Source: Thunnus maccoyii
Taxonomy: Eukaryota; Chordata; Actinopteri; Scombriformes; Scombridae
Direction of reading: 5' to 3'
Length of the DNA stretch: 64,000 bases
Assembly (NCBI RefSeq): GCF_910596095.1
Contig: NC_056544.1
Location: 7,332,655-7,396,654 of the forward strand
Under the pieces are notes generated by a model. The model searched no databases and was not told the origin of the DNA. It was given only the letters and a program-made list of their open reading frames with translations. Shown piece after piece: positions 20,335 through 64,000 of the stretch (position 1 is its first letter; every line of letters begins with the position of its first letter). The translations under genes and the position numbers were made by a program.

Positions 20335-20361
20335 CTGGGATATGAAAGTAGGGTCTCTCAC

Positions 20362-34200: not shown

Positions 34201-37200
34201 ATGAGAATAACTCAGAACTTAGTAAGTGTGCAATTTAAAAAAAAAAAAGAAAGCAGTTCAGTTGTTATTGTTGTGGTTTACAACAGCATTGATTTGACAT
34301 CTTCTTTCTTTTTTCTCCAGCCAAGGAAATTTTGGAACTGCAGAGCAAGGTGGATCATTTTCGACAGTTAATGTTAAACACCAAAACTACAACTGACTCC
34401 CTACTTAAAGGTGGATGATCCTACAGCTCTATGAACCTTGATTTACCTAAATAAGTTCAAAGTCACTTTTGTATATGTCTTTTTATTGTGAGATTATGAA
34501 ATTATTACAGAATGAACTTCTACAAATCTTTCTTCAAATGTTTTCATTACTTGTATAGTAAAATCCAAAAGGAAAAGATTGTTGTTGTTTTTTCATCCTA
34601 GAGCTAAGAGTTATGTTGGATGCGGAGAAGAAAAAGTTCAGCGACCTACAGAGACAACTGGAGGAGACAGACTTTACCCAGGCACAACTGAGTGAGTATG
34701 AGCTGCAGTTATACATAATAACTATTGCTTAGAATAACGAGTTTAATTTGAAATGATTATATATTCGTTTTGGGAAACAAATCTCTAAATCACTGATGAT
34801 TCTCATATTTTCTTATATCACCAAACCACTAAAAGCAAAGCAAAAACAAAGCACTCATATACAGCTTAAATTTGTCACCCTTAAAAATTCATAGTTTTAA
34901 AACAAATCTGTTTTTTTTTGTTCTTGCTGTTGGTTTTTTTAAATTGTATTTTGCTTGGAGCAGTCATAAAGATTATCAACATAATGAAAGACGTGAGAGA
35001 GCTGCAGGATGACAAGCTAGAGACACCATCAAGAAATCAAGAAACCAGTGAGTTATCCTCTCCTGCTACTATTTTTAAAGTCCTGCCAAAAAACGGCTGA
35101 TAATTGCCAAAAATAGCTGCCATAAATATCTAGAAAGACTCAATTTGTTTATATGTCACTGTTGTAAATCAGCCCTTCAGACTGTGCTTCAAACCAAAGA
35201 AAGGGAGTATGCCAGAGCTCAGGCTGAAATAAAGGGTGAGTGGGTTTTATCCTCAGAACGAAACAATGACATAACAAAAGGTACCATTGCAAGTGAGAAT
35301 TTTGATGTCCGGACTTTCTCTTTCCAAACAACAGAGTTGCAGAGGAAATTGCAATTAAAGAGTGAGGAATGCTCTGGACTTGAGGAAAGATATGAGCGTA
35401 AGTTGTTAACATGACTGCAGCTAAACGCTCCGATAATTTATGTTCCAGTTTCACTTCTGATTTGGATTATGTGTCTGTTTCCATCAGAGGTAAAGACTGA
35501 ATTTGAGCAGAAGATTGCAGAACTGAACAGAACTGGAGACTCCAAAGTGGCACTCAGTGAGTGAAGTTACAATATTGTCATTATGGCTTCAGTACAGTAC
35601 AATATTCATATTTAGCTGAGATCTCACCTTTTTCATGAGAGGTGTCCTCTGCTCAGTTCATCACCTGATAAGCTGTGTAATGATGTTTGCTTTGTTTTTC
35701 TGTGTCAGTTCTGAACGTGATAAACCTGCATGATGATCTGAAGGCACTGGAAGATCTGATCTCCACCACAAAAGACCCAGACAAGGTCTCAGGTGAGTAA
35801 CAGTGGTCACAGTCAATGTTTGACTCTGTTGTGCATTGAGAAATTTGTGTTCCTTACAATTATTATTTTTAAATTTACAGGTAGAATAAGATCATTTCTC
35901 CTGTCTCCAAGAGTCAAGAACTGACAGAGTTCAGATCTCGCCACTAACAGTGAAACTATTGTTAAAGTAGAATGGTCTGATTTGGAAAATTATCTCACTG
36001 TGGTAGATTGTCAGAGTTGTCACTTTAAAGACTCTGTAGGAGACTGATGGCTGATGTTTTTCTGCCTCTCCTAGTCTTTCGCTTTATCTCCCCACAGAGC
36101 TGCAGAGGCAACTGGAGGAGAAGCAAGACGAACTGAACTCCAAGACTGAAGAAATAGAGAAACTGATGGCCAACCCCAAAATAAGTGAGCACATTGATTT
36201 GATACACTGTGATCATCAGGTCACTGTTTAAGTCCAAATCATTGTTAAAGGTGTAAATTCATAGTTGTTGCCAGATTTGTCACCACTTAAAATATCAAGT
36301 CTCTTGACCCCTTATAGACAGAAACTAAATAGAAGTTGTTTTTTTCCTTGTGTTTTTGTTTTCGTCTTCTAATTATTTTTGACAAAAAGTTCCTTCATCA
36401 GTGTTTCAGAAAGAAAAAATGTTTACTTGTAATTTATGTAACTTGGCTGCTACAACAGTACAATTACCCTTTGGGATTAATTAAGTACTCTATCCACTAC
36501 TAGATAGTAGATATTACTTTCTACAAAGCTAAATGTGTTGAATGTTTGAGAGAAAAATTCCAATTTTTACCCACAATGGATAAACTCAACCTCATATCGC
36601 TGCTTGCAATAACTCTGTTTATGCATCTCAGTGTGTTTCCTTGTGCTCTTTTCTTTAAGACACCAAATCCACTGATGTTTTGATTATTAACCATCAGCCT
36701 GTTGTCAAGCAAAAAGTCCTGTTTCACACACCATAAATACTTGTTGACTTGACAGCAGTTGATGTAGGTCATGGAAATATGGAGTAATAAATGGAGTAAA
36801 TAGACATTTTGCATTTAATATTGAGGGCTGGTAAGACAGGTTTCTGAAGCAATAAACTCAGTCAAACCCACTGCATGTTTGTTTCTTTCAGTTTTAACAA
36901 TCATTGAGCTGCAGAATGATATATGGGACCATCAGAAAAAGGCTGCTAATGAGACCACTGGTGACCAAAGAAAAGGTCAGTCTGTTTTAAATGCTAATGT
37001 AACAATTCAGAGTGACATTATTTGACAAATCAAATCACAAAAGATAAAATGTAATCTCATCAAGGACTATTTTTTTGTTCTAGAGTTGCAAAACAGAGTG
37101 GATGGTCTTATCAGTGAGATCAATGACAAAGACGATGAAAACACAAAACTGAGTGAGTAGGAAATAAATTTGAGCAGAAAGATTCACAGACAAGCTGTCC

Positions 37201-40200
37201 TGTTTATATAAGATCTTATTACATTATTTACTATATTTTGACATCTTTGTGTGCTTCAGTGCTGAAAATCATGACGCTGCAGAGTCAAGTGGAATACTTG
37301 CAGAGACAGCTGTCAGAACACCAGAGGTCACAGACCGCTCAGGTAACCCGTAAGTATCTCTAATAATCCTTTACAAATCCCATATTCATTCCAATCCATA
37401 CAACTAAAATAAAAAATGTTGTTATTGCATCCTGATTTTCTGTATATAACTAATTAATGTGTTTTAAATTTGTCTCAGAGCTCACAAACGAGCTCACAGC
37501 CAAGAAGAAAGACCTACAGAAATCAGTCAATGAGCTGAATGAGAAGAATCAGAAAGATGCCAAACTGAGTAAGTAAAAAGGCAACAAGGTGTCTACATTC
37601 ATTATTAAAAATAATCTGAAATCTTTTTCGTCCTGAATAATATCTCATTTCTGTGTTTCTCAGTTCTAACAATCACTGATCTGCACAACCAACTCAGAAA
37701 CCTAGAAAAAGAAAAGCGTGACGAGGCCCAAACAACTTCTTCTACAGTTGCTAGTGAGTGTTGTGGGAGAAAACCTTCAGCTGGGCCAGATGTGTCCAGG
37801 TTCCCTACCACACTGTTTAAGTATCTTTAAGGAAAAACATCAGACTAATCAAGAATAGTTCAATATGATATAAGTTTACTCTAAATTCAGTGTACATGTA
37901 AACCGAGCTGGTCCATGGAGCAACTGAAACAGAATCATGAAACACATGCATTTATACTAAGATTCAAGATTCAAGATTAATTTATTATTATCATTTTACA
38001 ACGCAAGGTTGTATAAATGTAAATGTAGTTTGTAGTCCCTTTATGCTATCACAAAAACAGAAATCATATAAATTGATTAACAAATAATAAAACTATTTTT
38101 TATTTTGGAGTGTGGAGGATGAATTGAGGAATCTCACAGCCTGAGGAGAGAAACGGCTCTGTAGTCTGGTGGTACGACAGCAGATAACTCTGTATCTCTT
38201 GCTAGACGGCAGCAGGGTGAACAGGCTGTGGTTGGGGTGGGTATTGTCTTTTAGTATCCTTTGGGCTCTGTGCAGGCACTTCACCTCACCGATATCACTG
38301 ATGCTCGGTAGATGGGTACCGATGATGTTCTGGGCGGTTTTAATCACCCGCTGCAGAGCCTTCCTGTCTTGGGCCGTGCACATTTCATGCCAATTGGTGA
38401 TGTTTCCAGTCAGGGTGCTTTCTATTGCTCCTCTGTATCAGTTAACAAGAACTTGGGACGGGAATTTTGCCTTCTTAAGTTTCTGTAAGAAGTACAGTCG
38501 TTTCTGAGCTTTTTTTACAAGGGTGGAGATGCGTGATGTCCATGACAGGTTCTCTGTGATGTTGATTCCAAGGAACCTAAAACTGTTCACCTGCTCCACC
38601 TCAGCTCCACTGATGTAGACAGGAGTGTGTGTCTTTGCCTTCTTCTTTCTAAAATCAACAATCAGCCTCTTGGTTTTGTTGACATTGAGCAGTAGGTTGT
38701 TCTCTGTGCACCATTCTGCAAGATTGTTGATTTCCTCCCAGTATGAACTCTTATGGTTGTTTGAAATCTGGCCGATGATGGTGGTGTCATACGCAAACTT
38801 CACAACAGAGTTCTCTCCATGTTGGGGTTTGCAGTCATGAGTGTACAGCATGAATAGGAGGGAACTGAGCACACAACCCTGAGAGGCTCTGGTGTTGAGC
38901 ACTAGAGTGGAGGAGGTGTGACCACCAATCCAAGCTGTCTGGGGTCTGTCGGTGAGAAAGTCCAATATCCAGTTGCAGAGTGTGGTACTCAAGCCCGGAG
39001 TGCTAAGTTTTCCAATCAATTTCATGGGGGAGATTGTATTAAATGCTGAGCTGAAACCAACAAACAACATTCTGATGTAGGTGTTGGTATTTTCAAAGTG
39101 TGCGAAGACTGAGTGGAGGACAGTGGAGATGGCATCCTCTGTGGATCTGTTGGTTCTGCATGCAAATTGGTGAGGGTCCAGGCTGTCTGGGATGTTGTGT
39201 TTGATGTGCTGGAGAAGCAGTTTTTCAAAGCATTTCATCAGAACAGGAGTAAGTGCTACAGGGCGGTAGTCTTTCGACTAGACGCTGCAGACCTTTAAGG
39301 TACAGGGATGATGGTGGCTGTCTTGAAGCAGGTGGGGACACTCTCCTGTGACAATCAAGTGTTAAAAATGTCAGTAATAACATCAACTAGCTGGTCAGAA
39401 CATGATTTTAGTACACGGCCAGGGATGTTATCAGGCCCAGCAGCTTTATTCATAATCACTCAGCAGGATTGTTCTCACATCTGCTGTAGATACTGATAGT
39501 GGCAGATCCTCTGGTGGCGGAGTGGACTTTACAACTGACTCTTTGTTGAGGATATCAAAGCGAGCATTGTGAGACGCTGTGATGTTCTGGATCGCCTGCC
39601 ACATATCTTTGGTGTTGGTGGTGTTTAGGTCTCTCTCCAGTCTCTGCTCATGTCTCTGCTTTGCCTCCTTGATGCCAGCTTTCAGTCTTGCTCTGGCAGT
39701 GATGTATGTTTCCTTGTCACCTGACCGAAAGGCAGCTTTTTTGGCTCTGGATAGAGCCCTCACCTCTCCATTCATTCAGGCTCTCTGGCTGGGGAATGAT
39801 TTTATTGTCTTTGTGATTACCACATCATCAACACATTTGCTGATGTATGATGTCACTGTTGATGTATAGTCCTCAAGACTAATGTGGTTTTCCTGGGTGG
39901 CATCATCTCTAAACATGTGCCAGTCTGTGTATTCAACACAGTCCTGTAGAGCTGCTGTAGCTTCATCTGTCCACACAAACAGTTTTTACTAATGGTTTGA
40001 CCCTTTTTATCAGCTGAGAGTAAGTAGGCAGGAGAAGCAGGGAAATATGGTCTGATAGACCAAAACGGGAATGAGGGAGGGCTTTTTTGCTGCCAGGAAT
40101 GTTAGTATAAACATGGTCCAGGGTATTACTTCCCCTGGTGGGGATGTGGACATACTAGTGGAATTTAGGTAAAGCAGTACCACCTACAATAAAAATACCA

Positions 40201-43200
40201 TCTAGTTGTTTTGTCATGTGAATGCTGATGACCTCATACTCTTTCTGTAGTGCATTTTTTGAATTTGCATCTATAGGAATGTAAATGGAAACAACAAACA
40301 CACTGGTGAATTCTCTAGGCAGATAATATAGTCAACATATTAACATTAAAATCTGGTAAACGCCGTCCATCCACTTTGACTGCATTTGAGCACCGGAGCA
40401 TCACTGATGTGAACACAGAGTCCGCCTCCCCTCCTCTTACCGGAGTCTTGTGTTCTGTTGGCACGGAACATGGTCCGCTCATGAAGTGCAATAGCTTGAT
40501 CTGGGATGTTGGGATGGAGCCCGGTCTCTGTAAAGATGTGGACACAACAGTCTCGGATTTCCCATTGCCGAGTTAGCCTGAGTCTTATTTCCTCCATTTT
40601 ATTTTCTCTGTGACCGGACATTAGCCAGAAGTAGGTTGGGTAGAGTAATAGCCTTAGGTCCAAGCTGGGTTAGCTTGGCTCTGATCCTGGCTCTCTTCCC
40701 TCTAACTACTACCCCCTCCTATTGAGACATCAACACATTCCTGTATCACTTAGTTCCACACACCATTATATTCTCAGGCACATCTAAAGTTACAAAACTA
40801 AATGATTAACCTTGACTGTTTGTCCACTTAGTAAGACTAAAAGAGTAGAATGAGACTAGAAGAGTAAAATAATGGTGTATATTCTTCTACAAAGAATATA
40901 AAAAAATAATTGATTTATCCCCAAAGTAAATGATTTTATAACTTGATTGGGACTATATTGGTAATGTCTGAACAGGTAAAAATTTCCCACAGTGTCCTTT
41001 TCCTCCTTGGCATTATTGAATTCATGTATTAGCTGTACACCCTTCTTAAACTGAAGCATAAATCACTTTTTCAGAGCTGAGGGAACAACTGAAGGCAAAA
41101 GAGGAGGAACACTCTCATGATCAGGCTGAGATCAAAGGTAAGTTAAGTCCTGGCATGTTGAGGTTGCTGCCACAAGAAATGAAAAAGAACATTACCTTAC
41201 ATTATGAATCTGTGTTTTGTACTAGCTCTGCAGAGTGAACTGAACCAGACGGAGGCGCAATGTTCAAGTTTTGAGCAGAAACTAAAAGGTGAGTGTTGTC
41301 TCAGTTGGTTTTTACTTACTGTCCGTGCTGGCCAACAATGTCTGAAAAACTGTGAACACTCTTTTGAATCTATTGTGGGAAATGAACGGGTTTATTGTCT
41401 ATTTTAAAGTTAAAAAACAGTAGTGTCCACGTCTTTGTCTGTCAATTTTAGCAAATGATTGGATTTTTCACCATACAGAGAGATGACATGATGTATAAAC
41501 CACATTAATTTTTAGCTGTTTTTATCCTCATAATAAAACAATGATATAACAAAAGGCACCATTGCAAGTGAGAATTTTGATGGCCAGTCTTTCTCTTTCC
41601 AAACAACAGAGCTACAGAGGAATCTGACATTAAAGAGTGAAGAATGCTCTGGACTTGAGGAAAGATATGAGCGTAAGTTGTTAACATGACTGCAGCTAAA
41701 CGCTCCGATGATTTATGTTCCAGTTTCACTTTTGATTTGGATTATGTGTCTGTTTCCATCAGAGGTAAAGACTGAATTTGAGCAGAAGATTGCAGAACTG
41801 AACAGAACTGGAGACTCCAAAGTGGCACTCAGTGAGTGAAGTTACAATATTGTCATTATGGCTTCAGTACAGTACAATATTCATATTTAGCTGAGATCTC
41901 ACCTTTTTCATGAGAGGTGTCCTCTGCTCAGTTCATCACCTGATAAGCTGTGTAATGATGTTTGCTTTGTTTTTCTGTGTCAGTTCTGAACGTGATAAAC
42001 CTGCATGATGATCTGAAGGCACTGGAAGATCTGATCTCCACCACAAAAGACCCAGACAAGGTCTCAGGTGAGTAACAGTGGTCACAGTCAATGTTTGACT
42101 CTGTTGTGCATTGAGAAATTTGTGTTCCTTACAATTATTATTTTTAAATATACAGGTAGAATAAGATCATTTCTCCTGTCTCCAAGACTCAAGAACTGAC
42201 AGAGTTCAGATCTCGCCACTAACAGTGAAACTATTGTTAAAGTTGAATGGTCTGATTTGGAAAATTATCTCACTGTGGTAGATTGTCAGAGTTGTCACTT
42301 TAAAGACTCTGTAGGAGACTGATGGCTGATGTTTTTCTGCCTCTCCTAGTCTTTCGCTTTATCTCCCCACAGAGCTGCAGAGGCAACTGGAGGAGAAGCA
42401 AGACGACCTGAACTCCAAGACTGAAGAAATAGAGAAACTGATGGCCAACCCCAAAATAAGTGAGCACATTGATTTGATACACTGTGATCATCAGGTCACT
42501 GTTTAAGTCCAAATCATTGTTAAAGGTGTAAATTCATAGTTGTTGCCAGATTTGTCACCACTTAAAATATCAAGTCTCTTGACCCCTTATAGACAGAAAC
42601 TAAACCCTTTGGGATTAATTAAGTACTCTATCCACTACTAGATAGTAGATATTACTTTCTACAAAGCTAAATGTGTTGAATGTTTGAGAGAAAAATTCCA
42701 GCTTTTACCCACAATGGATAAACTCAACCTAATATCGCTGCTTGCAATAACTCTGTTTATGCATCTCAGTGTGTTTCCTTGTGCTCTTTTCTTTAAGACA
42801 CCAAATCCACTGATGTTTTGATTATTAACCATCAGCCTGTTGTCAAGCAAAAAGTCCTGTTTCACACACCATAAATACTTGTTGACTTGACAGCAGTTGA
42901 TGTAGGTTATGGAAATATGGAGTAATAAATGGAGTAAATAGACATTTTGCATTTAATATCGAGGGCTGGTAAGACAGGTTTCTGAAGCAATAAACTCAGT
43001 CAAACCCACTGCATGTTTGTTTCTTTCAGTTTTAACAATCATTGAGCTGCAGAATGATATATGGGACCATCGGAAAAAGGCTGCTAATGAGACCACTGGT
43101 GACCAAATAAAAGGTCAGTCTGTTTTAAATGCTAATGTAACAATTCAGAGTGACATTATTTGACAAATCAAATCACAAAAGATAAAATGTAATCTCATCA

Positions 43201-46200
43201 AGGACTATTTTTTTGTTTTAGAGTTGCAAAACAGAGTGGATGGTCTTATCAGTGAGATCGATGACAAAGATGATGAAAACACAAAACTGAGTGAGTAGGA
43301 AATAAATTTGAGCAGAAAGATTCACAGACAAGCTGTCCTGTTTATATAAGATCTTATTACATTATTTACTATATTTTGACATCTTTGTGTGCTTCAGTGC
43401 TGAAAATCATGACGCTGCAGAGTCAAGTGGAATACTTGCAGAGACAGCTGTCAGAACACCAGAGGTCACAGACCGCTCAGGTAACCCGTAAGTATCTCTA
43501 ATTATCCTTTACAAATCCCATATTCATTCCAATCCATACAACTAAGATATAAAATGTTGTTATTGCATCCTGATTTTCTGTATATAACTAATTAATGTGT
43601 TTTAAATTTGTCTCAGAGCTCACAAACGAGCTCACAGCCAAGAAGAGAGACCTACAGAAATCAGTCAACGAGCTGAATGAGAATAATCAGAAAGATGCCA
43701 AACTGAGTAAGTAAAAAGGCAACAAGGTGTCTACATTCATTATTAAAAATAATCTGAAATCTTTTTTTCTCTAATCTTTCTAATTTCATTTCTGTGTTTC
43801 TCAGTTCTAACAATCACTGATCTGCACAACCAACTCAGAAACCTAGAAAAAGAAATGTGCGACGAAGCCCAAACAACTTCTTCTACAGTTGCTAGTGAGT
43901 GTCCTTTTCCTACTTGGCATTATTGAATTCATGTATTAGCTGTACACCCTTCTTAAGCTAAAGCATAAACTACCTTTCTAGAGCTGAGGGAAAAACTGAA
44001 GGCAAAAGAGGAGGAACACTCTCATGATCAGGCTGAGATCAAAGGTAAGTTAAGTCCTGGCATGTTGAGGTTGCTGCCACAAGAAATGAAAAAGAACATT
44101 ACCTTACATTATGAATCTGTGTTTTGTACTAGCTCTGCAGAGTAAACTCAATCAGACGGAGGAGCAGTGTTATAGTTTTGAGCAGAAACTAAAAGGTGAG
44201 TGTTGTCTCTGTTGGTTTTTACTTACTGTCCCTGCTGGCCAACAATGTCTGAAAAACTGTGAACACTCTTTTGAATCTATTGTGGGAAATGAACGGGTTT
44301 ATTATCTATTTTAAAGTTAAAAAAAACAGTAGTCTCCACGTCTTTGTCTGTCAGTTCTAGCAAATGATTGGATTTTGGATTTTTGATCTAGCTCCATCTT
44401 CAACTGTTCAAAATTTTATAAATCAACCAATCAGACGACTAATTTCTTTGGAAAATTGAGGCCTTAATGAGTGGCTTTTTTACTGTCCCATGAAAATTGA
44501 ACAGCCCACAGGAAGAGCTACAGGAATCATTGAATCTGTAAATAGATAAGTAAGGAAGGGGTTAAGAAATGTTTCAAGTCCTTTGTGGTATTTTGTAGAT
44601 TGTTATAGTCAACAGACTGCTTTTTGGAGCAGGTGGAGTTGCCCCCTGATGGCCATTAGAAAGAATGCAGGTTTAAGGCACTTCTGCATTGGCTTCACTT
44701 TTGAGACCCGGAACTACCTGCTTGGTTCTGCGTCTGAAAAGTGAAGCCAATGCGGAAGTGCCTTAAACCTACATTCTCTCTAATGGCCATCAGGGGTGAC
44801 ACCTCTGGCTCCAAAAAGAAGTCTTTTTGTGTAGAAGTCTATGAGAAAATGACCCTACTTCTCACTTGATTTATACCTCAGTAAACAGTTTCCTAATGAG
44901 TTTGTGGTCTCAATCGCTAGTTTCAAGTCTTCTTCAATACAACTTGATGTTCATTTTGTAAATTATGTTCCCATTTCATTTAAACTTGACAATAAAGCAG
45001 GGTATGATTTAGGGCGTGGCTATCTTGTGATTGAAAAGTTGCTACCACAGCGACAACATTGGTTAGGTAATGTAACCATGGCGTAACCCCAGATATAGGC
45101 GTAGCTGCCGCTATTTGCGTTTTGCATTTTTAGTTCATTACAGCTACTTGTAACATTATGGTCGCCTAAAAAAGTCTTGTTCAGCGTTTGGTTGTGCTAA
45201 AAGACCCTCTAAGGAATCAGCTGTTCAGTTTTTCCAGTAAGTACATTTTTTAAAATAGTTTTAAGCCTGTTTGTTGCCACCGAAAATTAGCATTAGCATT
45301 ATCACAGTTAACCATAGACTGTAAATGCACCGTGCTAAGCATCACTTCTGGCTCCAAAAATCCAAGATGGCAACGGTCAATGTCTATGGTTGTAGTTCTA
45401 AAGTGTTATTTTATTAATATTGTGGAAATTGTTTACCCAATGACAACTACTAACAGTTGACATATTAACAGATACTGTATATGGTCATTCAATTCATTCA
45501 GGGGCAATATTGCTCACTTACCCAATTCATCTTACAATCTGATATCTTTCTAAACCTGTCAATTATTTCAGGACAGGAGGTATTAGTTTTTCACATGCAT
45601 CACAATATAATCTAGATAAAAAATGATATGAAATTGGGTGTGTTATGAAGAGTGATTGGCTCACGATCTTGTGATTGCTGGGTAGCCTGCAGAAGTGGCT
45701 CAGATGGTGAAGCAAGTAGCCTAATAAGATGGAGAGAGGGCAACCCTGTCGAGACCTCCAGATAGGAAATCTTGCTGAGCAGATATTGCCGGTCAAAACC
45801 ACAGACATGGATAAAAGCTTTGATCCTAATATTTTGCTCTATATTTAGAATATACAGCTGATGTATATGTGTCCTTGTAGAACTGCAGAATGACCTGGAT
45901 GACAAAATGAAGGAGCTGCAGTCCAAATCTGACAGTGTTACTTCACTTGGTGAGTGAAGGACCTACATTACTGTTTTGTTCAAACTTCTCAGTACTGACC
46001 AAATGTCATTTCTGACCCATTCAATTTTCTCTGTCCATCCCAGTGGGAGTCTAGTTTATATTTTATTTTACTTAAGTGGAGCTTGAAGGATTTCCTCTCT
46101 GTTGACTAATAATGACACTTCATGATATCTGTTTTGACAATTTAAAGTAAAAATGAGCCATTGTTTCACACTGATATTTAGTTGATGTCCCATAACCTGG

Positions 46201-52200: not shown

Positions 52201-55200
52201 GTTTCTCAGTTCTAACAATCACTGATCTGCACAACCAACTCAGAAACCTAGAAAAAGAAATGCGCGACGAAGCCCAAACAACTTCTTCTACAGTTGCTAG
52301 TGAGTGTCCTTTTCCTACTTGGCATTATTGAATTCATGTATTAGCTGTACACCCTTCTTAAGCTAAAGCATAAACTACCTTTCTAGAGCTGAGGGAAAAA
52401 CTGAAGGCAAAAGAGGAGGAACACTCTCATGATCAGGCTGAGATCAAAGGTAAGTTAAGTCCTGGCATGTTGAGGTTGCTGCCACAAGAAATGAAAAAGA
52501 ACATTACCTTACATTATGAATCTGTGTTTTGTACTAGCTCTGCAGAGTAAACTCAACCAGACGGAGGAGCAGTGTTATAGTTTTGAGCAGAAACTAAAAG
52601 GTGAGTGTTGTCTCTGTTGGTTTTTACTTACTGTCCCTGCTGGCCAACAATGTCTGAAAAACTGTGAACACTCTTTTGAATCTATTGTGGGAAATGAACG
52701 GGTTTATTATCTATTTTAAAGTTAAAAAAAACCAGTAGTCTCCACGTCTTTGTCAGTTTTAGCAAATGATTGGATTTTGGATTTTGGATGTAGCTCCATC
52801 TTCAACTGTTCAAAATTTTATAAATCAACCAATCAGACGACTAATTTCTTTGGAAAATTGAGGCCTTAATGAGTGGCTTTTTTACTGTCCCATGAAAATT
52901 GAACAGCCCACAGGAAGAGCTACAGGAATCATTGAATCTGTAAATAGATAAGTAAGGAAGGGGTTAAGAAATGTTTCAAGTCCTTTGTGGTATTTTGTAG
53001 ATTGTTATAGTCAACAGACTGCTTTTTGGAGCAGGTGGAGTTGCCCCCTGATGGCCATTAGGAAGAATGCAGGTTTAAGGCACTTCTGCATTGGCTTCAC
53101 TTTTGAGACCCGGAACTACCTGCTTGGTTCTGCGTCTGAAAAGTGAAGCCAATGCGGAAGTGCCTTAAACCTGCGTTCTCTCTAATGGCCATCAGGGGTG
53201 ACATCTCTGGCTCCAAAAAGAAGTCTTTTTGTATAGAAGTCTATGAGAAAATGACCCTACTTCTCACTTGATTTATACCTCAGTAAACAGTTTCCTAATG
53301 AGTTTGTGGTCTCAATCGCTAGTTTCAAGTCTTCTTCAATACAACTTGATGTTCATTTTGTAAATTATGTTCCCATTTCATTTAAACTTGACAATAAAGC
53401 AGGGTATGATTTAGGGCGTGGCTATCTTGTGATTGAAAAGTTGCTACCACAGCGACAACATTGGTTAGGTAATGTAACCATGGCGTAACCCCAGATATAG
53501 GCGTAGCTGCCGCTATTTGCGTTTTGCATTTTTAGTTCATTACAGCTACTTGTAACATTATGGTCGCCTAAAAAAGTCTTGTTCAGCGTTTGGTTGTGCT
53601 AAAAGACCCTCTAAGGAATCAGCTGTTCAGTTTTTCCAGTAAGTACATTTTTTAAAATAGTTTTAAGCCTGTTTGTTGCCACCGAAAATTAGCATTAGCA
53701 TTATCACAGTTAACCATAGACTGTAAATGCACCGTGCTAAGCATCACTTCTGGCTCCAAAAATCCAAGATGGCAACGGTCAATGTCTATGGTTGTAGTTC
53801 TAAAGTGTTATTTTATTAATATTGTGGAAATTGTTTACCCAATGACAACTACTAACAGTTGACATATTAACAGATACTGTATATGGTCATTCAATTCATT
53901 CAGGGGCAATATTGCTCACTTACCCAATTCATCTTACAATCTGATATCTTTCTAAACCTGTCAATTATTTCAGGACAGGAGGTATTAGTTTTTCACATGC
54001 ATCACAATATAATCTAGATAAAAAATGATATGAAATTGGGTGTGTTATGAAGAGTGATTGGCTCACGATCTTGTGATTGCTGGGTAGCCTGCAGAAGTGG
54101 CTCAGATGGTGAAGCAAGTAGCCTAATAAGATGGAGAGAGGGCAACCCTGTCGAGACCTCCAGATAGGAAATCTTGCTGAGCAGATATTGCCGGTCAAAA
54201 CCACAGACATGGATAAAAGCTTTGATCCTAATATTTTGCTCTATATTTAGAATATACAGCTGATGTATATATGTCCTTGTAGAACTGCAGAATGACCTGG
54301 ATGACAAAATGAAGGAGCTGCAGTCCAAGTCTGACAGTGTTACTTCACTTGGTGAGTGAAGGACCTACATTACTGTTTTGTTCAAACTTCTCAGTACTGA
54401 CCAAATGTCATTTCTGACCCATTCAATTTTCTCTGTCCATCCCAGTGGGAGTCTAGTTTATATTTTATTTTACTTAAGTGGAGCTTGAAGGATTTCCTCT
54501 CTGTTGACTAATAATGACACTTCATGATATCTGTTTTGATAATTTAAAGTAAAAATGAGCCATTGTTTCACACTGATATTTAGTTGATGTCCCATAACCT
54601 TGTCATACCAATCATCTTTGTCAAAATCTGATCTTTTAATTACGTTGAAAAAAAACTGTACACAGGAATGCAGTGTGTTGTGGATCTGGATGCAGGTAGT
54701 TTAAAGGATAATGGAAACATTAGACAGTCTGAATACTGCTCTTTAGTTTAACTGCTTAAGTCTGATTGTTTCAGCTCTTCAAATTTCCACATTAACCCTG
54801 CAACTTGAGGAGCTAAAGAGACAACTACAAAACACTGAATCCAAAACCAAGATAAAAGGTGAGTGTGTTTCATTGTCAATTCAATTCAGTTCAGGCACTT
54901 GTTTTATATTGTATGTAAAATAGCTACTTTGCGACTTAGTAACAGATCAACTTAACACTGATGTGAGGTACAAAGATCAGAGGATATCCAAGTTAAAAAC
55001 CATCTTTTTCTTTGATCTGCAGAGCTTCAAAAAATTATAGACGAGAAGAATGATGAGCTGGCCAAAAAAACAGAGGAGCTGAAAGCAAGAAGTGCTCAAC
55101 CTCAAAAACGTGAGTACAACATAGAGGTTCTATCGATCTGGTTTATGTTTGCATTGATTAACAACCCACTGAAACAATCAAAATAACTGAATGATATGTA

Positions 55201-58200
55201 TAGTTAAGGTGGCAGGTGATACATGCTAGAATATGATTATTAATGTTAACTCTTCTTTCAGTTCTACAGATTATTGCAATACAAACAGAGATTGAGAAAC
55301 TGGCGAATGTGGCAGAAAATGACACAGATTACTCTAAGATTAGCGGTGAGTGACAGAACTATATCTTGACAGCATATACGAAGGACTCCAGACCAAAAAC
55401 ACTGTAAAAATTACAAGTTTTTCTAATAAACGGTTACATTAAACACATTACATGTGCTCTTATGAAATTATGTTTTGATGTTGTCATTTGTATACAGCAC
55501 TCCAAAACCATCTGAATAATCTGATTAACGGAATTGAAGATGAAAAGGACGAAAATACTAAACTGAGTGAGTCATCATCAGAATTACAGTAAAATGAACT
55601 GGTCGTTGGTCTTGTATCCAGTGAATTTACAGTATCTAATCCAGTCTTTCTTCTGTTAGTGTTTCAGATCTTGGCTCAACAAGATGAAATAGCAAGACTG
55701 AAGAAGCAAGAAGACAAACAGACAAAAGCACAATTAGAGAAAATTAAAGGTGGGGAGCAGTATATATTCCTTAAATGTATGCTTTATACTTTTTCATACA
55801 TTCTGAGGACCTAAACCACAATTCTGTCTTTCTTGAAGAACTGGAGAATGAACTGGAGGACGTCAGAAATCAGATAAAAGAAAAGACAACGGTGCTGGAC
55901 TCAAGTGACACGAAGATTGGTGATCTTTGTAGGTGTTTTATTCAGCTGGACAAAAACAGAATTTTTAATTTCCTTCAGGATATTAAAAGTAGCTTGTTTT
56001 GTCTTTTTTTTTGTTTTTTAGCGGCTCAGATTATGGAACTTCACAAGAAAATCAAACCATTGGAAGACCAAATATCAGACCTCAAGGAAACAAACGCTGA
56101 GAACCTTGCAGGTGAGGAACAAAATGTGATATTTCTACTGTTATACACCAAGAAATAAAACATTACATATAAACAGAGTTTTATTTATAAGATGATATAT
56201 TTTGTTGATCTCTAACTTGCTTTCAGAGATTCAGAAGAGACTGGAGTTAGCAAAGAGGCAACTGCAAGACAGTGAACTTCGGCTCAATGATGCAGATGCA
56301 CAGAATTTTAACTTGAGTATGAAAATGTCTTATTTGCTAATGTTTCATGTCATGTCATTTGTTTCTTTTAAGGCCAATATAACATAGCAGCTGTGTTTGT
56401 GTGTCTGCTAGTGATGGAGATTGCTGAATTGAGGGCAAAACTGAAAAAGGCTGAGAAAGGGCCATCCAAAGCTGCTGAAAGAAATATCAACGGTTTGTCA
56501 GTCTGTTACTTTCCTACTATTGTGTCTCTACTGTCATTCAGCACATTCAGTCTAAGGTGAAGAATAAATTAGGTTTGTCATACAGTTGTGATAATTTGAT
56601 GCTTTCTCTCCCAGAACTGACGCAACAACTACAAACACAACAAAAAGAGAACAAGAAACTCCAAAGCACAAATGAAGGTGTGTACTGTACATCCCAACTT
56701 TTTCAAACTTCTCCTCAAATACTTATTATTATGTTGGTTTGTGTTTGATACACATCCATGTTTCAACCTCCTCCCTCTGTCAGACTTAAAGCAAGAGGCC
56801 AAAGAACTAAAAATGTGCTACAACGATGCCACACTGTTAAATTATCTTTAAAGGTGCAGTGTGTAGGATTTAGTGGCATCTAGTGGTGAAGTTGCAGATT
56901 GCAACCAACTAAATAGCCCTCACCCTCCCCTTCCAAGCATGTAGGTCAACGTACGGTGCCCGTGAAGCTCGCAAAAAACATGAAAGGCTCTCTCTAGAGC
57001 CAGTGTTTGGTTTTTCTGTTCTGGGCTACTGTAGAAACATGCTGGTGCAACATGGCGGGGTCCATGGAAGAGGACCCGCTCCCTATGTAGATATAAAGGG
57101 CTCATTCTAAGGTAACGAAAACACAACGATTCTTATTTTCAGGTGATTGTACACTAATTGAAACATACTTATGAATATTATATTCCATTTCTGCCGAGTC
57201 CGTTCTGCTAGATGCCACTAAATTCTACACACTGCACCTTTAAGTAAAAACTCAGACTAATCAAGTAGAGTTCAATATGATATAGCTTTACTGTAAATTC
57301 AAACAGTACATGGAGCAAATGAAAGAGAATTATGAAACACATTCATTTATACTAACTACTAACCCTTCCTATTGTGGAGTCAAACATTAACTCGCTCCCA
57401 TCACTGTACCTCTCTTGGCCTAACTCATTTATCAAGACACCATTATCTCGTGTCTTTGGGTACCTTCCACCATGATTAGCTGTTTTCCAGGAACGTACAG
57501 TGTTTTGCCTTCCTTAGTAGCCAATATCTTCATGCGAGGAGACATCAACACATTCCTGTATCACTTAGTTCCACACACCATTATATTCTCAGGCACATCT
57601 AAAGTTACAAAACTAAATGATTAACCTTGACTGTTTGTCCACTTAGTAAGACTAAAAGAGTAGAATGAGACTAGAAGAGTAAAATAATGGAGTATATTCT
57701 TCTACAAAGAATATAAAAAAAGTAATTGCTTTATCTCCAAAGTAAATGATTTTGTAACTTGATTGGTACTATATTGGTAATGTCTGGACAGGTAAAAATT
57801 TCCCACAGTGTCCTTTTCCTCCTTGGCATTATTGAATTCATGTATTAGCTGTACACCCTTCTTAAGCTGAAGCATAAATTACTTTTCCAGGGCTGAGGGA
57901 ACAACTGAAGGCAAAAGAGGAGGAACACTCTCATGATCAGGCTGAGATCAAAGGTAAGTTAAGTCCTGGCATGTTGAGGTTGCTGCCACTAGAAATGAAA
58001 AAGAACATTACCTTACATTATGAATCTGTGTTTTGTACTAGCTCTGCAGAGTGAACTGAACCAGACGGAGGTGCAATTTTCAGGTTTTGAGCAGAAAGTA
58101 AAAGGTTAGTGTTGTCACTGTTGGTTTTTACTTACTATCCATGCTGGCCAACAATGTCTGAAAAACTGTGAACACTCTTTTGACTCTCTTATGGGAAATG

Positions 58201-61200
58201 AACACGTTTATTGTCTATTTTAAAGTAAAAAAACAGTAGTGTCCACATCTTTGTCTGTCAGTTTTAGCAAATGATTGGATTTTTCACCATACAGAGAAAT
58301 GACATGATGTATAAACCACATTTCTTTTTAGCTGTTTTTATCCTCATAATAAAACAATGATATAACAAAAGGCACCATTGCAAGTGAGAATTTTGATGTC
58401 CAGTCTTTCTCTCTTTCCAAACAACAGAGCTACAGAGGAATCTGACATTGAAGAGTGAGGAATGCTCTGGACTTGAGGAAAGATATGAGCGTAAGTTGTT
58501 AACATGACTGCAGCTAAACACTCCGATGATTTATGTTCCAGTTTCACTTTTGATTTGGATTATGTGTCTGTTTCCATCAGAGGTAAAGACTGAATTTGAG
58601 CAGAAGATTGCAGAACTGAACAGAACTGGAGACTCCAAAGTGGCACTCAGTGAGTGAAGTTACAATATTGTCATTATGGCTTCAGTACAGTACAATATTC
58701 ATATTTAGCTGAGATCTCACCTTTTTCATGAGAGGTGTCCTCTGCTCAGTTCATCACCTGATAAGCTGTGTAATTATGTTTGCTCTGTTTTTCTGTGTCA
58801 GTTCTGAACGTGATAAACCTGCATGATGATGTGAAGGCTCTGGAGGATCTGATCTCCACCACAAAAGACCCAGACAAGGTCTCAGGTGAGTAACAGTGGT
58901 CACAGTCAATGTTTGACTCTGTATTAACCGTTTGTTGTGCATTGAGAAATTTGTGTTCCTTACAATTATTACTTTTAAATATACAGGTAGAATAAGATCA
59001 TTTCTCCTGTCTCCAAGACTCAAGAACTGACAGAGTTCAGATCTCGCCACTAACAGTGAAACTATTGTTAAAGTTGAATGGTCTGATTTGGAAAATTATC
59101 TCACTGTTGTAGATTGTCAGAGTTGTCACTTTAAAGACTCTGTAGGAGACTGATGGCTGATGTTTTTCTGCCTCTCCTAGTCTTTTGCTTTGTCTCCCCA
59201 CAGAGCTGCAGAGGCAACTGGAGGAGAAGCAAAACGAACTGAACTCCAAGACTGAAGAAATAGAGAAACTGATGGCCAACCCCAAAATAAGTGAGCACAT
59301 TGATTTGATACACTGTGATCATCAGGTCACTGTTTAAGTCCAAATCATTGTTAAAGGTGTAAATTTGTAGTTGCTGCCAGATTTGTCACCACTTAAAATA
59401 TCAAGTCTCTTGACCCCTTATAGACAGAAACTAAATAGAAGTTGTTTTTTTCCTTGTGTTTTTGTTTTCGTCTTCTAATTATTTTTGACAAAAAGTTCCT
59501 TCATCAGTGTTTCAGAAAGAAAAAATGTTTGCTTGTAATTTATGTAACTTGGCTGCTACAACAGTACAATTACCCTTTGGGATTAATTAAGTACTCTATC
59601 CACTACTAGATAGTAGATATTACTTTCTACAAAGCTAAATGTGTTGAATGTTTGAGAGAAAAATTCCAATTTTTACCCACAATGGATAAACTCAACCTCA
59701 TATCGCTGCTTGCAATAACTCTGTTTATGCATCTCAGTGTGTTTCCTTGTGCTCTTTTCTTTAAGACACCAAATCCACTGATCTTTTGATTATTAACCAT
59801 CAGCCTGTTGTCAAGCAAAAAGTCCTGTTTCACACACCATAAATACTTGTTGACTTGACAGCAGTTGATGTAGGTCATGGAAATATGGAGTAATAAATGG
59901 AGTAAATAGACATTTTGCATTTAATATCGAGGGCTGGTAAGACAGGTTTCTGAAGCAATAAACTCAGTCAAACCCACTGCATGTTTGTTTCTTTCAGTTT
60001 TAACAATCATTGAGCTGCAGAATGATATATGGGACCATCAGAAAAAGGCTGCTAATGAGACCACTGGTGACCAAATAAAAGGTCAGTCTGTTTTAAATGC
60101 TAATGTAACAATTCAGAGTGACATTATTTGACAAATCAAATCACAAAAGATAAAATGTAATCTCATCAAGGACTATTTTTTTGTTCTAGAGTTGCAAAAC
60201 AGAGTGGATGGTCTTATCAGTGAGATCGATGACAAAGACGATGAAAACACAAAACTGAGTGAGTAGGAAATAAATTTGAGCAGAAAGATTCACAGACAAG
60301 CTGTCCTGTTTATATAAGATCTTATTACATTATTTACTATATTTTGACATCTTTGTGTGCTTCAGTGCTGAAAATCATGACGCTGCAGAGTCAAGTGGAA
60401 TACTTGCAGAGACAGCTGTCAGAACACCAGAGGTCACAGACCGCTCAGGTAACCCGTAAGTATCTCTAATAATCCTTTACAAATCCCATATTCATTCCAG
60501 TCCATACAACTAAAATAAAAAATGTTGTTATTGCATCCTGATTTTCTGTATATAACTAATTAATGTGTTTTAAATTTGTCTCAGAGCTCACAAACGAGCT
60601 CACAGCCAAGAAGAAAGACCTACAGAAATCAGTGAACGAGCTGAATGAGAATAATCAGAAAGATGCCAAACTGAGTAAGTAAAAAGGCAACAAGGTGTCT
60701 ACATTCATTATTAAAAATAATTGAAATCTTTTTTTCTCTAATCTTTCTAATTTCATTTCTGTGTTTCTCAGTTCTAACAATCACTGATCTGCACAACCAA
60801 CTCAGAAACCTAGAAAAAGAAAAGCGCAACGAAGCCCAAACAACTTCTTCTACAGTTGCTAGTGAGTGTCCTTTTCCTACTTGGCATTATTGAATTCATG
60901 TATTAGCTGTACACCCTTCTTAAGCTAAAGCATAAACTACCTTTCTAGAGCTGAGGGAAAAACTGAAGGCAAAAGAGGAGGAACACTCTCATGATCAGGC
61001 TGAGATCAAAGGTAAGTTAAGTCCTGGCATGTTGAGGTTGCTGCCACAAGAAATGAAAAAGACCTTACATTATGAATCTGTGTTTTGTACTAGCTCTGCA
61101 GAGTAAACTCAACCAGACGGAGGAGCAGTGTTATAGTTTTGAGCAGAAACTAAAAGGTGAGTGTTGTGTCTGTTGGTTTTTACTTACTGTCCCTGCTGGC

Positions 61201-63908
61201 CAACAATGTCTGAAAAACTGTGAACACTCTTTTGAATCTATTGTGGGAAATGAACGGGTTTATTATCTATTTTAAAGTAAAAAAAACAGTAGTCTCCACG
61301 TCTTTGTCTGTCAGTTCTAGCAAATGATTGGATTTTGGATTTTTGATCTAGCTCCATCTTCAACTGTTCAAAATTTTATAAATCAACCAATCAGACGACT
61401 AATTTCTTTGGAAAATTGAGGCCTTAATGAGTGGCTTTTTTACTGTCCCATGAAAATTGAACAGCCCACAGGAAGAGCTACAGGAATCATTGAACCTGTA
61501 AATAGATAAGTAAGGAAGGGGTTAAGAAATGTTTCAAGTCCTTTGTGGTATTTTTAGATTGTTATAGTCAACAGACTGCTTTTTGGAGCAGGTGGAGTTG
61601 CCCCCTGATGGCCATTAGAAAGAATGCAGGTTTAAGGCACTTCTGCATTGGCTTCACTTTTGAGACCCGGAACTACCTGCTTGGTTCTGCGTCTGAAAAG
61701 TGAAGCCAATGCGGAAGTGCCTTAAACCTACATTCTCTCTAATGGCCATCAGGGGTGACACCTCTGGCTCCAAAAAGAAGTCTTTTTGTGTAGAAGTCTA
61801 TGAGAAATGACCCTACTTCTCACTTGATTTATACCTCAGTAAACAGTTTCCTAATGAGTTTGTGGTCTCAATCGCTAGTTTCAAGTCTTCTTCAATACAA
61901 CTTGATGTTCATTTTGTAAATTATGTTCCCATTTCATTTAAACTTGACAATAAAGCAGGGTATGATTTAGGGCGTGGCTATCTTGTGATTGAAAAGTTGC
62001 TACCACAGCGACAACATTGGTTAGGTAATGTAACCATGGCGTAACCCCAGATATAGGCGTAGCTGCCGCTATTTGCGTTTTGCATTTTTAGTTCATTACA
62101 GCTACTTGTAACATTATGGTCGCCTAAAAAAGTCTTGTTCAGCGTTTGGTTGTGCTAAAAGACCCTCTAAGGAATCAGCTGTTCAGTTTTTCCAGTAAGT
62201 ACATTTTTTAAAATAGTTTTAAGCCTGTTTGTTGCCACCGAAAATTAGCATTAGCATTAGCATTATCACAGTTAACCATAGACTGTAAATGCACCGTGCT
62301 AAGCATCACTTCTGGCTCCAAAAATCCAAGATGGCAACGGTCAATGTCTATGGTTGTAGTTCTAAAGTGTTATTTTATTAATATTGTGGAAATTGTTAAC
62401 CCAATGACAACTACTAACAGTTGACATATTAACAGATACTGTATATGGTCATTCAATTCATTCAGGGGCAATATTGCTCACTTACCCAATTCATCTTACA
62501 ATCTGATATCTTTCTAAACCTGTCAATTATTTCAGGATAGGAGGTATTAGTTTTTCACATGCATCACAATATAATCTAGATAAAAAATGATATGAAATTG
62601 GGTGTGTTATGAAGAGTGATTGGCTCACGATCTTGTGATTGCTGGGTAGCCTGCAGAAGTGGCTCAGATGGTGAAGCAAGTAGCCTAATAAGATGGAGAG
62701 AGGGCAACCCTGTCGAGACCTCCAGATAGGAAATCTTGCTGAGCAGATATTGCCGGTCAAAACCACAGACATGGATAAAAGCTTTGATCCTAATATTTTG
62801 CTCTATATTTAGAATATACAGCTGATGTATATGTGTCCTTGTAGAACTGCAGAATGACCTGGATGACAAAATGAAGGAGCTGCAGTCCAAGTCTGACAGT
62901 GTTACTTCACTTGGTGAGTGAAGGACCTACATTACTGTTTTGCTCAAACTTCTCAGTACTGACCAAATGTCATTTCTGACCCATTCAATTTTCTCTGTCC
63001 ATCCCAGTGGGAGTCTAGTTTATATTTTATTTTACTCAAGTGGAGCCTGAAGGATTTCCTCTCTGTTGACTAATAATGACACTTCATGATATCTGTTTTG
63101 ATAATTTAAAGTAAAAATGAGCCATTGTTTCACACTGATATTTAGTTGATGTCCCATAACCTGGTCATACCAATCATCTTTGTCAAAATCTGATCTTTTA
63201 ATTACGTTGAAAAAAAAACTGTACACAGGAATGCAGTGTGTTGTGGATCTGGATGCAGGTAGTTTAAAGGATAATGGAAACATTAGACAGTCTGAATACT
63301 GCTCTTTAGTTTAACTGCTTAAGTCTGATTGTTTCAGCTCTTCAAATTTCCACATTAACCCTGCAACTTGAGGAGCTAAAGAGACAACTACAAAACACTG
63401 AATCCAAAACCAAGATAAAAGGTGAGTGTGTTTCATTGTCAATTCAATTCAGTTCAGGCACTTGTTTTATATTGTATGTAAAATAGCTACTTTGCGACTT
63501 AGTAACAGATCAACTTAACACTGATGTGAGGTACAAAGATCAGAGGATATCCAAGTTAAAAACCATCTTTTTCTTTGATCTGCAGAGCTTCAAAAAATTA
63601 TAGACGAGAAGAATGATGAGCTGGCCAAAAAAACAGAGGAGCTGAAAGCAAGAAGTGCTCAACCTCACAGACGTGAGTACAACATAGAAGTTCTATTGAT
63701 CTGGTTTATGTTTGCATTGATTAACAACCCACTGAAACAATCAAAATAACTGAATGATATGTATAGTTAAGGTGGCAGGTGATACATGCTAGAATATGAT
63801 TATTAATGTTAACTCTTCTTTCAGTTCTACAGATTATTGCAATACAAACAGAGATTGAGAAACTGGCGAATGTGGCAGAAAATGACACAGATTACTTTAA
63901 GATTAGCG
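31258..63908 (+). CDS. Giant secreted coiled-coil protein, unrecognised, with repeated exon units (3' end outside window)
   Basis: I do not recognise this gene. It has at least 91 coding exons with GT-AG borders, encoding 2,356 residues before the edge. Residues 1 to about 20 ([20 protein letters not shown]) are a signal peptide. Exons 1-26 are: 31258-31333, 31439-31521, 31619-31663, 31789-31813, 32075-32143, 32223-32312, 32420-32488, 32596-32691, 32892-32978, 33135-33233, 33774-33839, 33944-34033, 34135-34221, 34321-34410, 34602-34691, 34964-35047, 35173-35235, 35335-35397, 35488-35556, 35709-35792, 36098-36184, 36892-36975, 37084-37152, 37260-37349, 37479-37568 and 37664-37753. Later exons are listed under the units. 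From exon 5 on all are phase 1-1. Two exon types often alternate, one opening I/V-L-x-I-x-x-L and one opening E-L-Q-x-x-L. Both are Lys/Glu-rich with heptad-like leucines. N-glycosylation sequons recur (NRT, NET, NQT, NDT). I saw no transmembrane segment. A secreted or matrix rod protein is inferred; the far C-terminus is unseen. Confidence 0.8.
35247..37960 (+). repeat. Partial repeat unit 1 of the large gene (exons 18-26)
   Basis: Introns and exons here align closely with 41519-43894 in unit 2; exons 18-26 correspond to exons 29-37. After exon 26 the homology jumps at about 37787 to the tail of a full unit (48425 onward), so the exon 38-50 block is missing here. Unit 1 lacks the TTAA MITE. 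It is followed by the LINE insertion. It is the most diverged unit by eye. Confidence 0.85.
37961..40702 (-). mobile_element. LINE of the L2/CR1 group, decayed
   Basis: About 2.7 kb, on the - strand, inserted in the intron between exons 26 and 27. It shows an endonuclease fragment (about 40346-40663, [19 protein letters not shown]), a linker region (about 39446-39976), a reverse transcriptase (38438-39238, with [15 protein letters not shown] and [16 protein letters not shown]) and a C-terminal part (38093-38440). Frames are broken between these parts. The first catalytic Asp of the RT (usual xxDYSSAFN) reads GFSSAFN, and the FADD motif reads FAYD, so it cannot be active. The 3' end, at the left, carries tandem ATTCAAG words typical of L2-like tails. 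Units 2 and 3 have the uninterrupted site, TATACTAACTAC. Confidence 0.85.
44621..44817. repeat. Foldback (82-bp inverted arms) in unit 2
   Basis: Arms 44621-44702 and 44737-44817 are reverse complements with few mismatches, around a 34-bp loop. They contain TGATGGCCATTAGA and TTTAAGGCACTTC and their complements. It lies in the long intron between exons 39 and 40. The transcript would form a long stem. Confidence 0.85.
45172..45238 (+). pseudogene. THAP-type zinc-finger remnant in unit 2
   Basis: Reads [20 protein letters not shown], with the C-x4-C that opens a THAP domain, then a GTAAGT donor. An in-frame stop precedes it and nothing of the second half (C-x2-H) follows nearby. This is best read as the first exon of a THAP-bearing transposase of P-element type, left inside a non-autonomous copy. 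Confidence 0.5.
45310..45391. mobile_element. Small inverted-repeat element in unit 2
   Basis: An 82-bp segment bounded by perfect 10-bp inverted ends, AACCATAGAC and GTCTATGGTT. It may mark one end of the same decayed transposon that supplied the THAP remnant. Confidence 0.5.
48381..48448 (+). pseudogene. Stop-bearing pseudo-exon closing unit 2
   Basis: After a good acceptor (CTCTGTCAG), the phase-1 frame continues as [19 protein letters not shown] and ends NYL-stop. There is no donor before the TAA at 48446-48448. The stop overlaps the TTAA target of the following MITE. Since its neighbours are all phase 1-1, skipping it keeps the frame; including it would end the protein. An ancient exon that has lost its donor is the simplest reading. 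Confidence 0.65.
48449..48836. mobile_element. TTAA-target MITE (piggyBac-like) in unit 2
   Basis: A 388-bp element with inverted ends starting AGGTGCAGTGTGTAGGATTT and ending in its near-complement, AAATTCTACACACTGCACCT. It sits between TTAA at 48445-48448 and TTAA at 48837-48840. The unfilled site survives in unit 1 near 37821-37835 (ATCTTTAAGGAAAAAC), which confirms the TTAA duplication. Confidence 0.8.
53023..53219. repeat. Foldback, unit 3 copy
   Basis: Same 197-bp inverted-repeat structure as at 44621-44817, carried along with the unit duplication. Confidence 0.85.
53574..53640 (+). pseudogene. THAP-type remnant, unit 3 copy
   Basis: Same reading as the unit 2 copy, with the same preceding stop, so it was already dead before the duplication. 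Confidence 0.5.
53712..53793. mobile_element. Small inverted-repeat element, unit 3 copy
   Basis: Same 82-bp segment as at 45310-45391. Confidence 0.5.
56784..56851 (+). pseudogene. Stop-bearing pseudo-exon closing unit 3
   Basis: Identical in layout to 48381-48448, with TAA at 56849-56851 and no donor before it. Confidence 0.65.
56852..57239. mobile_element. TTAA-target MITE, unit 3 copy
   Basis: 388 bp, the same length and ends as in unit 2, flanked by TTAA at 56848-56851 and 57240-57243. It was duplicated with the unit rather than inserted independently. Confidence 0.8.
61580..61776. repeat. Foldback, unit 4 copy
   Basis: Third copy of the 197-bp inverted repeat, same position within the unit. 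Confidence 0.85.
62130..62196 (+). pseudogene. THAP-type remnant, unit 4 copy
   Basis: Third copy of the C-x4-C remnant, unchanged in layout. Confidence 0.5.
62274..62355. mobile_element. Small inverted-repeat element, unit 4 copy
   Basis: Third copy of the 82-bp inverted-repeat segment; a few extra TTAGCA words lie just before it. Confidence 0.5.
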
Positions 63909-64000
63909 GTGAGTGACAGAACTATATCTTGACAGCATATACGAAGGACTCCAGACCAAAAACACTGTAAAAATTACAAGTTTTTCTAATAAACGGTTAC

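Follow-up and report, generated by a model that had tools for sequence, protein, structure and literature searches.

The window analysed here, a stretch of 64,000 nucleotides of the Thunnus maccoyii genome (G000:C12:7332655-7396654, strand +; assembly of 782 Mb in 54 contigs), carries a gene whose coding sequence contains a tandem array of near-identical exon blocks. Self-comparison placed on the + strand a partial unit 0, full units 1–3 of about 8.4 kb each and, past the window, a shortened unit 4 (Table 1). By sequence comparison the array reads A / R-A-R-B / R-A-R-B / R-A-R-B / R-B, where A and B are multi-exon blocks and R is a direct repeat at their borders. Positions above 64000 continue the numbering of the window past its edge, into the further loci L009 and L010. 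An earlier note on this DNA had described units of about 8.4 kb starting at 40724, 49136 and 57539, after a partial older unit near 35247. Self-comparison bears out the full units, with long alignments among units 1–3 being 98.4–98.8% identical, and the partial unit was found at 35245–37761. The range given for the array, to 64000, holds for the units in the window but not for the end of the array, as the end of unit 3, unit 4 and the end of the coding sequence at 72993 lie outside.

All units are joined in one gene model. Our exon model spans 31258 to 72993 and joins 117 coding exons into an unbroken frame of 3,218 residues, with four N-terminal exons (N1–N4), 13 old exons (O1–O13), 94 unit exons and six C-terminal exons. 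It was built with a splice-site scorer, whose strict scan gave 10 exons and whose thresholds were then loosened; two exons per unit, N1–N4, C3 and C6 were placed by hand. The model is letter-for-letter the NCBI T. maccoyii protein P0119, "golgin subfamily A member 4 isoform X1" (3,218 residues), which unites all units in one gene model; this identity was found after our model was built, and P0119 is itself a computed model. Every unit exon (9, 24, 24, 24 and 13 in units 0–4) has AG/GT sites and an open frame, and all 94 are phase 1-1, as the earlier note had proposed, 74 of them within the window. Its count of 24 exons per unit also stands, whereas its figure of 622 residues does not: the 24 exons, of 63–90 nt, total 1,875 nt, or 625 residues. 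These observations support the central claim of that note, that a single coding sequence has grown through in-frame tandem duplication of entire exon blocks.

The array might nevertheless not be translated as one protein, with transcripts skipping most units or ending early. The exon after exon 24, which corresponds to C1 after unit 4, is cut off by the junction segment in units 1–3 and has lost its donor, three donors per unit are weak, and the NCBI isoforms P0120–P0123 skip a block. However, none of the 94 unit exons lacks an open frame or AG/GT sites, the exons for the start and for B30.2 are not part of the units, and phase 1 is kept when the truncated exon is skipped, as it is in the model because its donor is lost. 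We consider this alternative quite unlikely. The skipping of one block of 284 or 341 residues, seen in P0120–P0123 and also in P0117 and P0118, may be real block-level splicing or ambiguous read mapping.

Divergence among the units differs between older and younger copies. Kilobases at greater than 98% identity exclude chance similarity. The first 1.9 kb of unit 1 is 96.6% identical to unit 3, and unit 0 is 97–98% identical to the matching parts of the full units. Non-coding divergence is 0.8–1.0% among units 1–3, about 2% relative to unit 0 and 2.2% relative to unit 4, and the junction copies J1–J3 differ at only 1–2 of 709 bases (0.1–0.3%). Unit 0 is clearly older than units 1–3, because its synonymous divergence (dS) from them (0.056–0.070) exceeds dS among units 1–3 (0.016–0.028). 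The overall pattern fits successive unequal crossing-over with recent exchange, and not two haplotypes left in the assembly.

Since the units are 98–99% identical and the case is judged from the assembly alone, the array could be an artefact in which a gene of fewer units appears longer through haplotype copies or wrongly joined repeats. Yet three full and two differently truncated units cannot be two haplotypes, unit 0 is clearly older, and the 124 kb examined contains no unresolved bases (Ns). The annotated proteins of T. thynnus and T. albacares also begin with the same A, AB order, and a genome search with a 308-residue stretch of the coil gave 31 matches, all at the array locus. For the B30.2 domain, the next-best genome matches are 40–45% identical and lie in other genes. 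An assembly artefact is thus highly improbable in our view. Another possibility is that selection on the protein alone has kept the copies alike in an array that is old and stable in number. Unit exons are open, and the ratio of nonsynonymous to synonymous divergence (dN/dS) is below 0.45 in seven of nine overlapping unit pairs (0.21–0.43). Against this, the non-coding and junction divergences given above are low, and the repeated blocks differ from species to species, which requires recent gain, loss or gene conversion. We regard selection alone as very unlikely.

Within the units, duplication is visible at nested levels, namely a two-exon module, sister blocks and tandem units, as read from the sequence. 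R is a direct repeat of about 480 bp that contains two 63-nt exons (1–2 or 12–13) and their introns. Identity between its two unit positions is 92–95%, with exact runs of up to 150 bp; the R before block A in unit 1 is 94–95% identical to the R copies preceding block B, and R copies overall are 93.4–99.6% alike, with exact runs of 87–293 bp. Including their R exons, blocks A and B encode 284 and 341 residues, respectively. Exons 4–11 and 14–21 have the same eight lengths (69, 84, 87, 84, 69, 90, 90 and 90 nt), and matched A/B exon pairs are 17–59% identical compared with a mean of 15% for unmatched pairs. These resemblances mark A and B as old sister blocks, and a copy of R precedes each. At a level older still, exons alternate between two sequence types in O1–O12, exons 4–11 and exons 14–23. 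In a test of 30 exons, which left out exons 1–3, 12, 13, 24 and O13 and in which labels were set by position after the pattern had been seen, the within-minus-between score was 16.1 compared with a shuffled mean of 0.01 (standard deviation 1.15), and none of 10,000 shuffles reached it. The lengths and identity of A, B and R, together with exon alternation, therefore point to nested duplication. Because A and B are also repeated separately, mobility extends to blocks smaller than the 24-exon unit.

The encoded protein is a predicted secreted coiled-coil rod with a C-terminal B30.2 domain. The signal-like start and the B30.2 domain, which lies outside the window, go beyond the earlier note, as does the separate repetition of A and B. 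The last C-terminal exon encodes PRY-SPRY (B30.2; Pfam PRY 2.1e-18, SPRY 8.2e-18), and the C-terminal exons after unit 4, including B30.2, occur once. Hydrophobic periodicity at 3.5 residues was 2.28, compared with 1.04 ± 0.18 in shuffled sequences, and at 3.6 residues it was 2.22 versus 1.03. An AlphaFold model of the 762-residue relative P0099 (39 others aligned) had a mean predicted local distance difference test score (pLDDT) of 78 and a predicted template modelling score of 0.44, with long helices and a C-terminal beta domain (pLDDT mostly greater than 90). By a simple hydrophobicity score, not a signal-peptide predictor, 120 of the 165 Met-starting proteins among 177 relatives had a hydrophobic N-terminus, and signal-like starts extend to relatives as distant as salmonids, shad and carp. 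The B30.2 domain has a near-invariant pair of cysteines (L009 8440-8993), separated by 95 residues and with conservation of at least 90% across 40 relatives; one of the two is absent from the seven tuna paralogues and the two solved relatives compared. The pair would fit a disulphide in a secreted domain.

Relatives of the gene go by the symbol si:ch211-14a17.10 or by names that fit poorly (golgin, myosin, interaptin, restin homolog, DDB_G0290503). The tuna protein shares with the si:ch211-14a17.10 group a signal-like start, a rod, a C-terminal PRY-SPRY and full-length similarity. Proteins of that name, P0086, P0102 and P0128, align over 82–100% of the query, and the carp proteins P0137 and P0139 match the rod and C-terminal tail (E values of 1e-24 to 1e-61), with the first 110 residues unmatched. 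No protein named as zebrafish, where the group is represented by F1R4U6, was among the matches of three protein searches.

We rejected several other identities. Golgin subfamily A member 4 has a C-terminal GRIP domain and no signal peptide. The C-terminal 324 residues of the tuna protein contain PRY, SPRY and a weak Rod_CreS match but no GRIP at an E value of 0.01, and GRIP is likewise missing from the precomputed Pfam list of P0119, which has a signal-peptide-like start. PRY-SPRY is shared with TRIM proteins, butyrophilins and pyrin, and the best solved-structure matches are pyrin and butyrophilin 3 (E ~1e-36), but the tuna protein differs from these in its predicted signal peptide and in that no RING, B-box or immunoglobulin (Ig) domain was found. 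Its first 458 residues matched no Pfam family, with neither the RING and B-box of TRIM proteins nor, despite the B30.2 domain, the Ig match of butyrophilins. The tuna scan covered these 458 and the C-terminal 324 residues; P0045 and P0139, scanned whole, also had no Ig domain. Elsewhere in the genome, a large cluster of B30.2 genes (G000:C2:1.8-3.5 Mb) contains many open frames of about 560 residues, perhaps TRIM genes.

Block number differs between species, as the earlier note expected and as far as annotated proteins tell. Three protein searches, each scoring about 8,000 candidates that shared most words within a length range, gave 177 distinct proteins; 175 are named, all from fish, and two are nameless. 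One fish protein cluster also bears a ferret label, likely a contaminant. Species tables used 118 of the first 132 proteins, representing 95 species grouped by name (entered by hand from listings) with the longest isoform of each; 14 extra isoforms of species already kept and 45 proteins new in the third search were excluded. Each protein was traced along a one-unit reference, and repeats were called at 85% or more identity over 80 residues. Internal repeats were found in 36 of the 95 species, in 28 genera. For example, annotated proteins have three A and three B blocks in Amphiprion, four B blocks in Limanda and three A blocks in Dicentrarchus. Among 44 species with both ends and no near-identical repeats, 23 have proteins of 1,228–1,383 residues and 14 of 1,495–1,634, several of the latter with an older, diverged second A block; four are shorter and three longer.

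Repetition is concentrated in the same part of the gene. R, A and B account for 35,744 (98%) of the 36,594 repeated residues that could be placed on the one-unit reference. The remainder comprises 790 residues in the following coil (six species with at least 20), 40 in the O part (Scortum only, one of 36 repeat-bearing species), 20 in SPRY (Perca) and none in the N-terminal part. Averaged over species, the repeated share was 0.56–0.74 for R, A and B, 0.13 for the coil that follows and 0.00 for all other parts. The N-terminal part and B30.2 domain thus appear practically never repeated. In FastTree block trees, B copies were monophyletic within 16 of the 23 species that have several, and A copies within 14 of 38. 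In several cases (Epinephelus, Channa, Lates) the nearest block copies were in congeners, so some duplications are shared and older, likewise those of the three Thunnus species. From these trees and tables, multiplication of this stretch evidently took place on more than one occasion, but not as 28 independent events. Within Thunnus, isoforms X3 and X6 of T. thynnus (3,559 residues each) lack different A blocks and together would imply five A and five B blocks, one unit more than the four and four of T. maccoyii, assuming that both computed isoform models follow the genome. Unit counts exclude the T. albacares models, in which the B30.2 end is missing.

Given three full and two partial block copies and similar repeats in other fish, the rod was probably lengthened repeatedly by unequal crossing-over. 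We consider it likely that this teleost gene for a predicted secreted coiled-coil B30.2 rod gained its whole-exon-block copies by unequal crossing-over between the border repeats. Recombination between R copies or between whole units would add or remove 284, 341 or 625 residues in frame, and the direct repeats at block borders predict these same step sizes between models. Recent exchange may keep the copies alike. With a helical rise of 0.15 nm per residue, each unit would lengthen the rod by about 90 nm, and the B30.2 head would then have its reach or avidity determined by copy number.

Several points weigh against this account. The evidence base is the assembly of one individual and computed NCBI models, and copy numbers in other species come from annotated proteins, some of them partial or fused to neighbours (P0130, P0131). 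Isoforms that skip a block may stem from reads mapping ambiguously among near-identical exons, and those of T. maccoyii hold hybrid block starts, which weakens the T. thynnus count. The block-A tree groups own-species copies in only a minority of species. Donor scores are weak for exons 20, 22 and 23 of each unit and for exon C3. In the two remaining unit pairs, both involving unit 4, dN/dS is 0.75 and 2.02, values based on no more than 2.5 synonymous differences each. Periodicity is as high at 3.6 as at 3.5 residues, which indicates an amphipathic helix and not a coiled coil as such. The first 110 residues had no carp or shad match at E <1 (2 of 12 proteins matched). Finally, the granulocyte lead discussed below is drawn from two gene lists that name the zebrafish gene with this symbol.

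Table 1. Features of the array and adjoining exons. Positions are those of the window, continued past 64000 where stated.
Feature	Position	Strand	Remarks
Exon N1	31258..31333	+	Start codon and predicted signal peptide; model, identical to P0119
Exons N2–N4 (83, 45, 25 nt)	31439..31813	+	N-terminal segment; Cys kept in consensus of 40 relatives
Exons O1–O13	32075..35235	+	Old, diverged coiled-coil part; O1–O12 read as six two-exon modules
Partial unit 0	35245..37761	+	Exons 3–11 (block A) only
Diverged remnant of unit-junction segment after unit 0	37825..37960	+	Two pieces, 89–90%
Antisense LINE-like open reading frames	38093..40669	-	From open reading frame list; within model intron between units 0 and 1
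Reverse transcriptase in LINE-like frames	38438-39277	-	Pfam RVT_1 7.3e-24
Unit 1	40724..49135	+	R-A-R-B and junction segment; 24 coding exons, 625 residues
R repeat preceding block A, unit 1	40991..41467	+	Exons 1–2 and introns
Block A, unit 1	41610..43894	+	Exons 3–11
R repeat preceding block B, unit 1	43898..44376	+	Exons 12–13 and introns
Block B, unit 1	45881..48274	+	Exons 14–24
Junction segment, unit 1	48427..49135	+	Contains ~400-bp element with 36-bp inverted ends
Unit 2	49136..57538	+	24 exons
Unit 3	57539..64000	+	Exons 1–17 in window; unit end ~66100, outside window
Unit 4, shortened	66101-66904 and 66989-71026 (window-extended)	+	Loci L009-L010; R-B, block A missing

Other elements accompany the array. 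The 3.0-kb spacing between units 0 and 1 harbours an antisense reverse transcriptase of a long interspersed nuclear element (LINE). The other unit junctions have no LINE-like open reading frames (ORFs), and therefore the element either inserted after the unit-0 duplication or was lost from the others. A hairpin at 44614-44827, with arms 83% complementary, is carried in units 1–4, as is the dispersed repeat beside it (44849-45400), which has at least 59 genome matches and whose full-length copies outside the locus are 81–85% identical. The ~400-bp element of the junction (48446-48842 in unit 1), with inverted ends 97% alike, is present in all three unit junctions. After unit 0, the remnant resembles the junction only beyond this element, and it may be an empty site.

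Upstream of the array is a Homez homeobox gene on the - strand (18346-20361), one long ORF with three homeodomain stretches (Pfam Homez 3.3e-24). Downstream are a DUF4508 protein on the - strand and a SAP-domain start resembling acin1, which we take to be C14orf119 and ACIN1, presumably in an order similar to that of human 14q11.2. The NCBI protein P0131 of Cebidichthys, called acin1a, combines a SAP domain with PRY-SPRY, and this domain mix fits a fusion of neighbours and the same neighbourhood in that fish.

The locus belongs to the kind of intragenic multi-exon segmental duplication known from NEB and CR1, with near-identical tandem blocks in one coding sequence and the frame kept. The earlier note knew of no described gene with this layout, but nebulin, titin and CR1 are known cases (PMC9109913, PMC9142044, PMC7487969). 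In human nebulin, eight exons are repeated three times, at about 10 kb each, with copy-number variation (PMC9109913). Its triplicate region is likewise a multi-exon block repeated within coding sequence, but nebulin is a muscle protein with one block size, whereas the tuna gene has sister blocks A and B bordered by R, in four copies each. A further difference from nebulin is that many fish genera carry repeats in this stretch. In CR1, allotypes are set apart by entire multi-exon repeats, with 30 versus 37 short consensus repeats (SCRs); the long and short forms have 2,494 and 2,044 residues (PMC7487969). CR1 is a receptor of complement-type SCR modules, in contrast to the predicted secreted rod with a B30.2 head in tuna. 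Titin contains an in-gene segmental duplication region with recurrent copy-number change (PMC9142044); it is a sarcomere protein, likened here by description, with no sequence comparison. Chicken BG genes are butyrophilin-related and have a coiled-coil tail of 13 to 36 exons (21–24 nt) between genes of one haplotype, for which unequal crossing-over has been proposed (PMC4046983). As in tuna, the coiled coil is built from many tiny exons, though BG exons are smaller. BG proteins have an Ig domain, a transmembrane segment and an intracellular tail, and the expansion described concerns whole genes, not tandem blocks within a gene. Segmental duplication of several exons in frame is thus known; new here are the nested blocks, the border direct repeats and the recurrence in one gene across teleosts.

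Among the papers listed from the open-licence literature, judged by titles and the starts of abstracts, we found no study of the gene. The symbol si:ch211-14a17.10 turned up in three tables, one each from a proteome, a gene list and a review. In the review, which gives the cells as lymphocytes, the zebrafish gene is tabled beside icn, grn2, lyz, mmp13a.1 and lect2l (PMC12163001); it stands near grn2, icn and srgn in a microglial list (PMC9653411), and its protein is in an embryo proteome table (PMC9995408). One of these companions, lyz, is named with mmp13a.1 for neutrophil clusters; in the same report icn and grn2 are named for natural killer-like cells, and mmp13a.1 and lect2l also for other clusters (PMC10948150). 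These listings hint weakly that the protein may be made by granulocytes, and the B30.2 head might, by a similarly weak inference, bind an extracellular partner.

In our view, the protein most likely acts as a secreted rod, of a length set by the number of blocks, that presents a B30.2 head for recognition. A broader proposal, which we regard as possible but short of probable, is that it is a secreted immune rod of teleosts whose length is re-invented rapidly and repeatedly. Here R at the block borders would turn one stretch of the gene into a recombination hotspot that gains or loses 284, 341 or 625 residues in frame, with length alleles within species and the rod acting as a molecular ruler for the B30.2 head. 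The gene offers a clean natural case of a protein growing by exon blocks at nested scales (two-exon module, 11–13-exon block and 24-exon unit), in which the unrepeated parts of the same gene serve as a built-in control. The analysis also identifies a widespread teleost gene that stands under ill-fitting database names. If length varies within species, the link between rod length and function would be directly testable.

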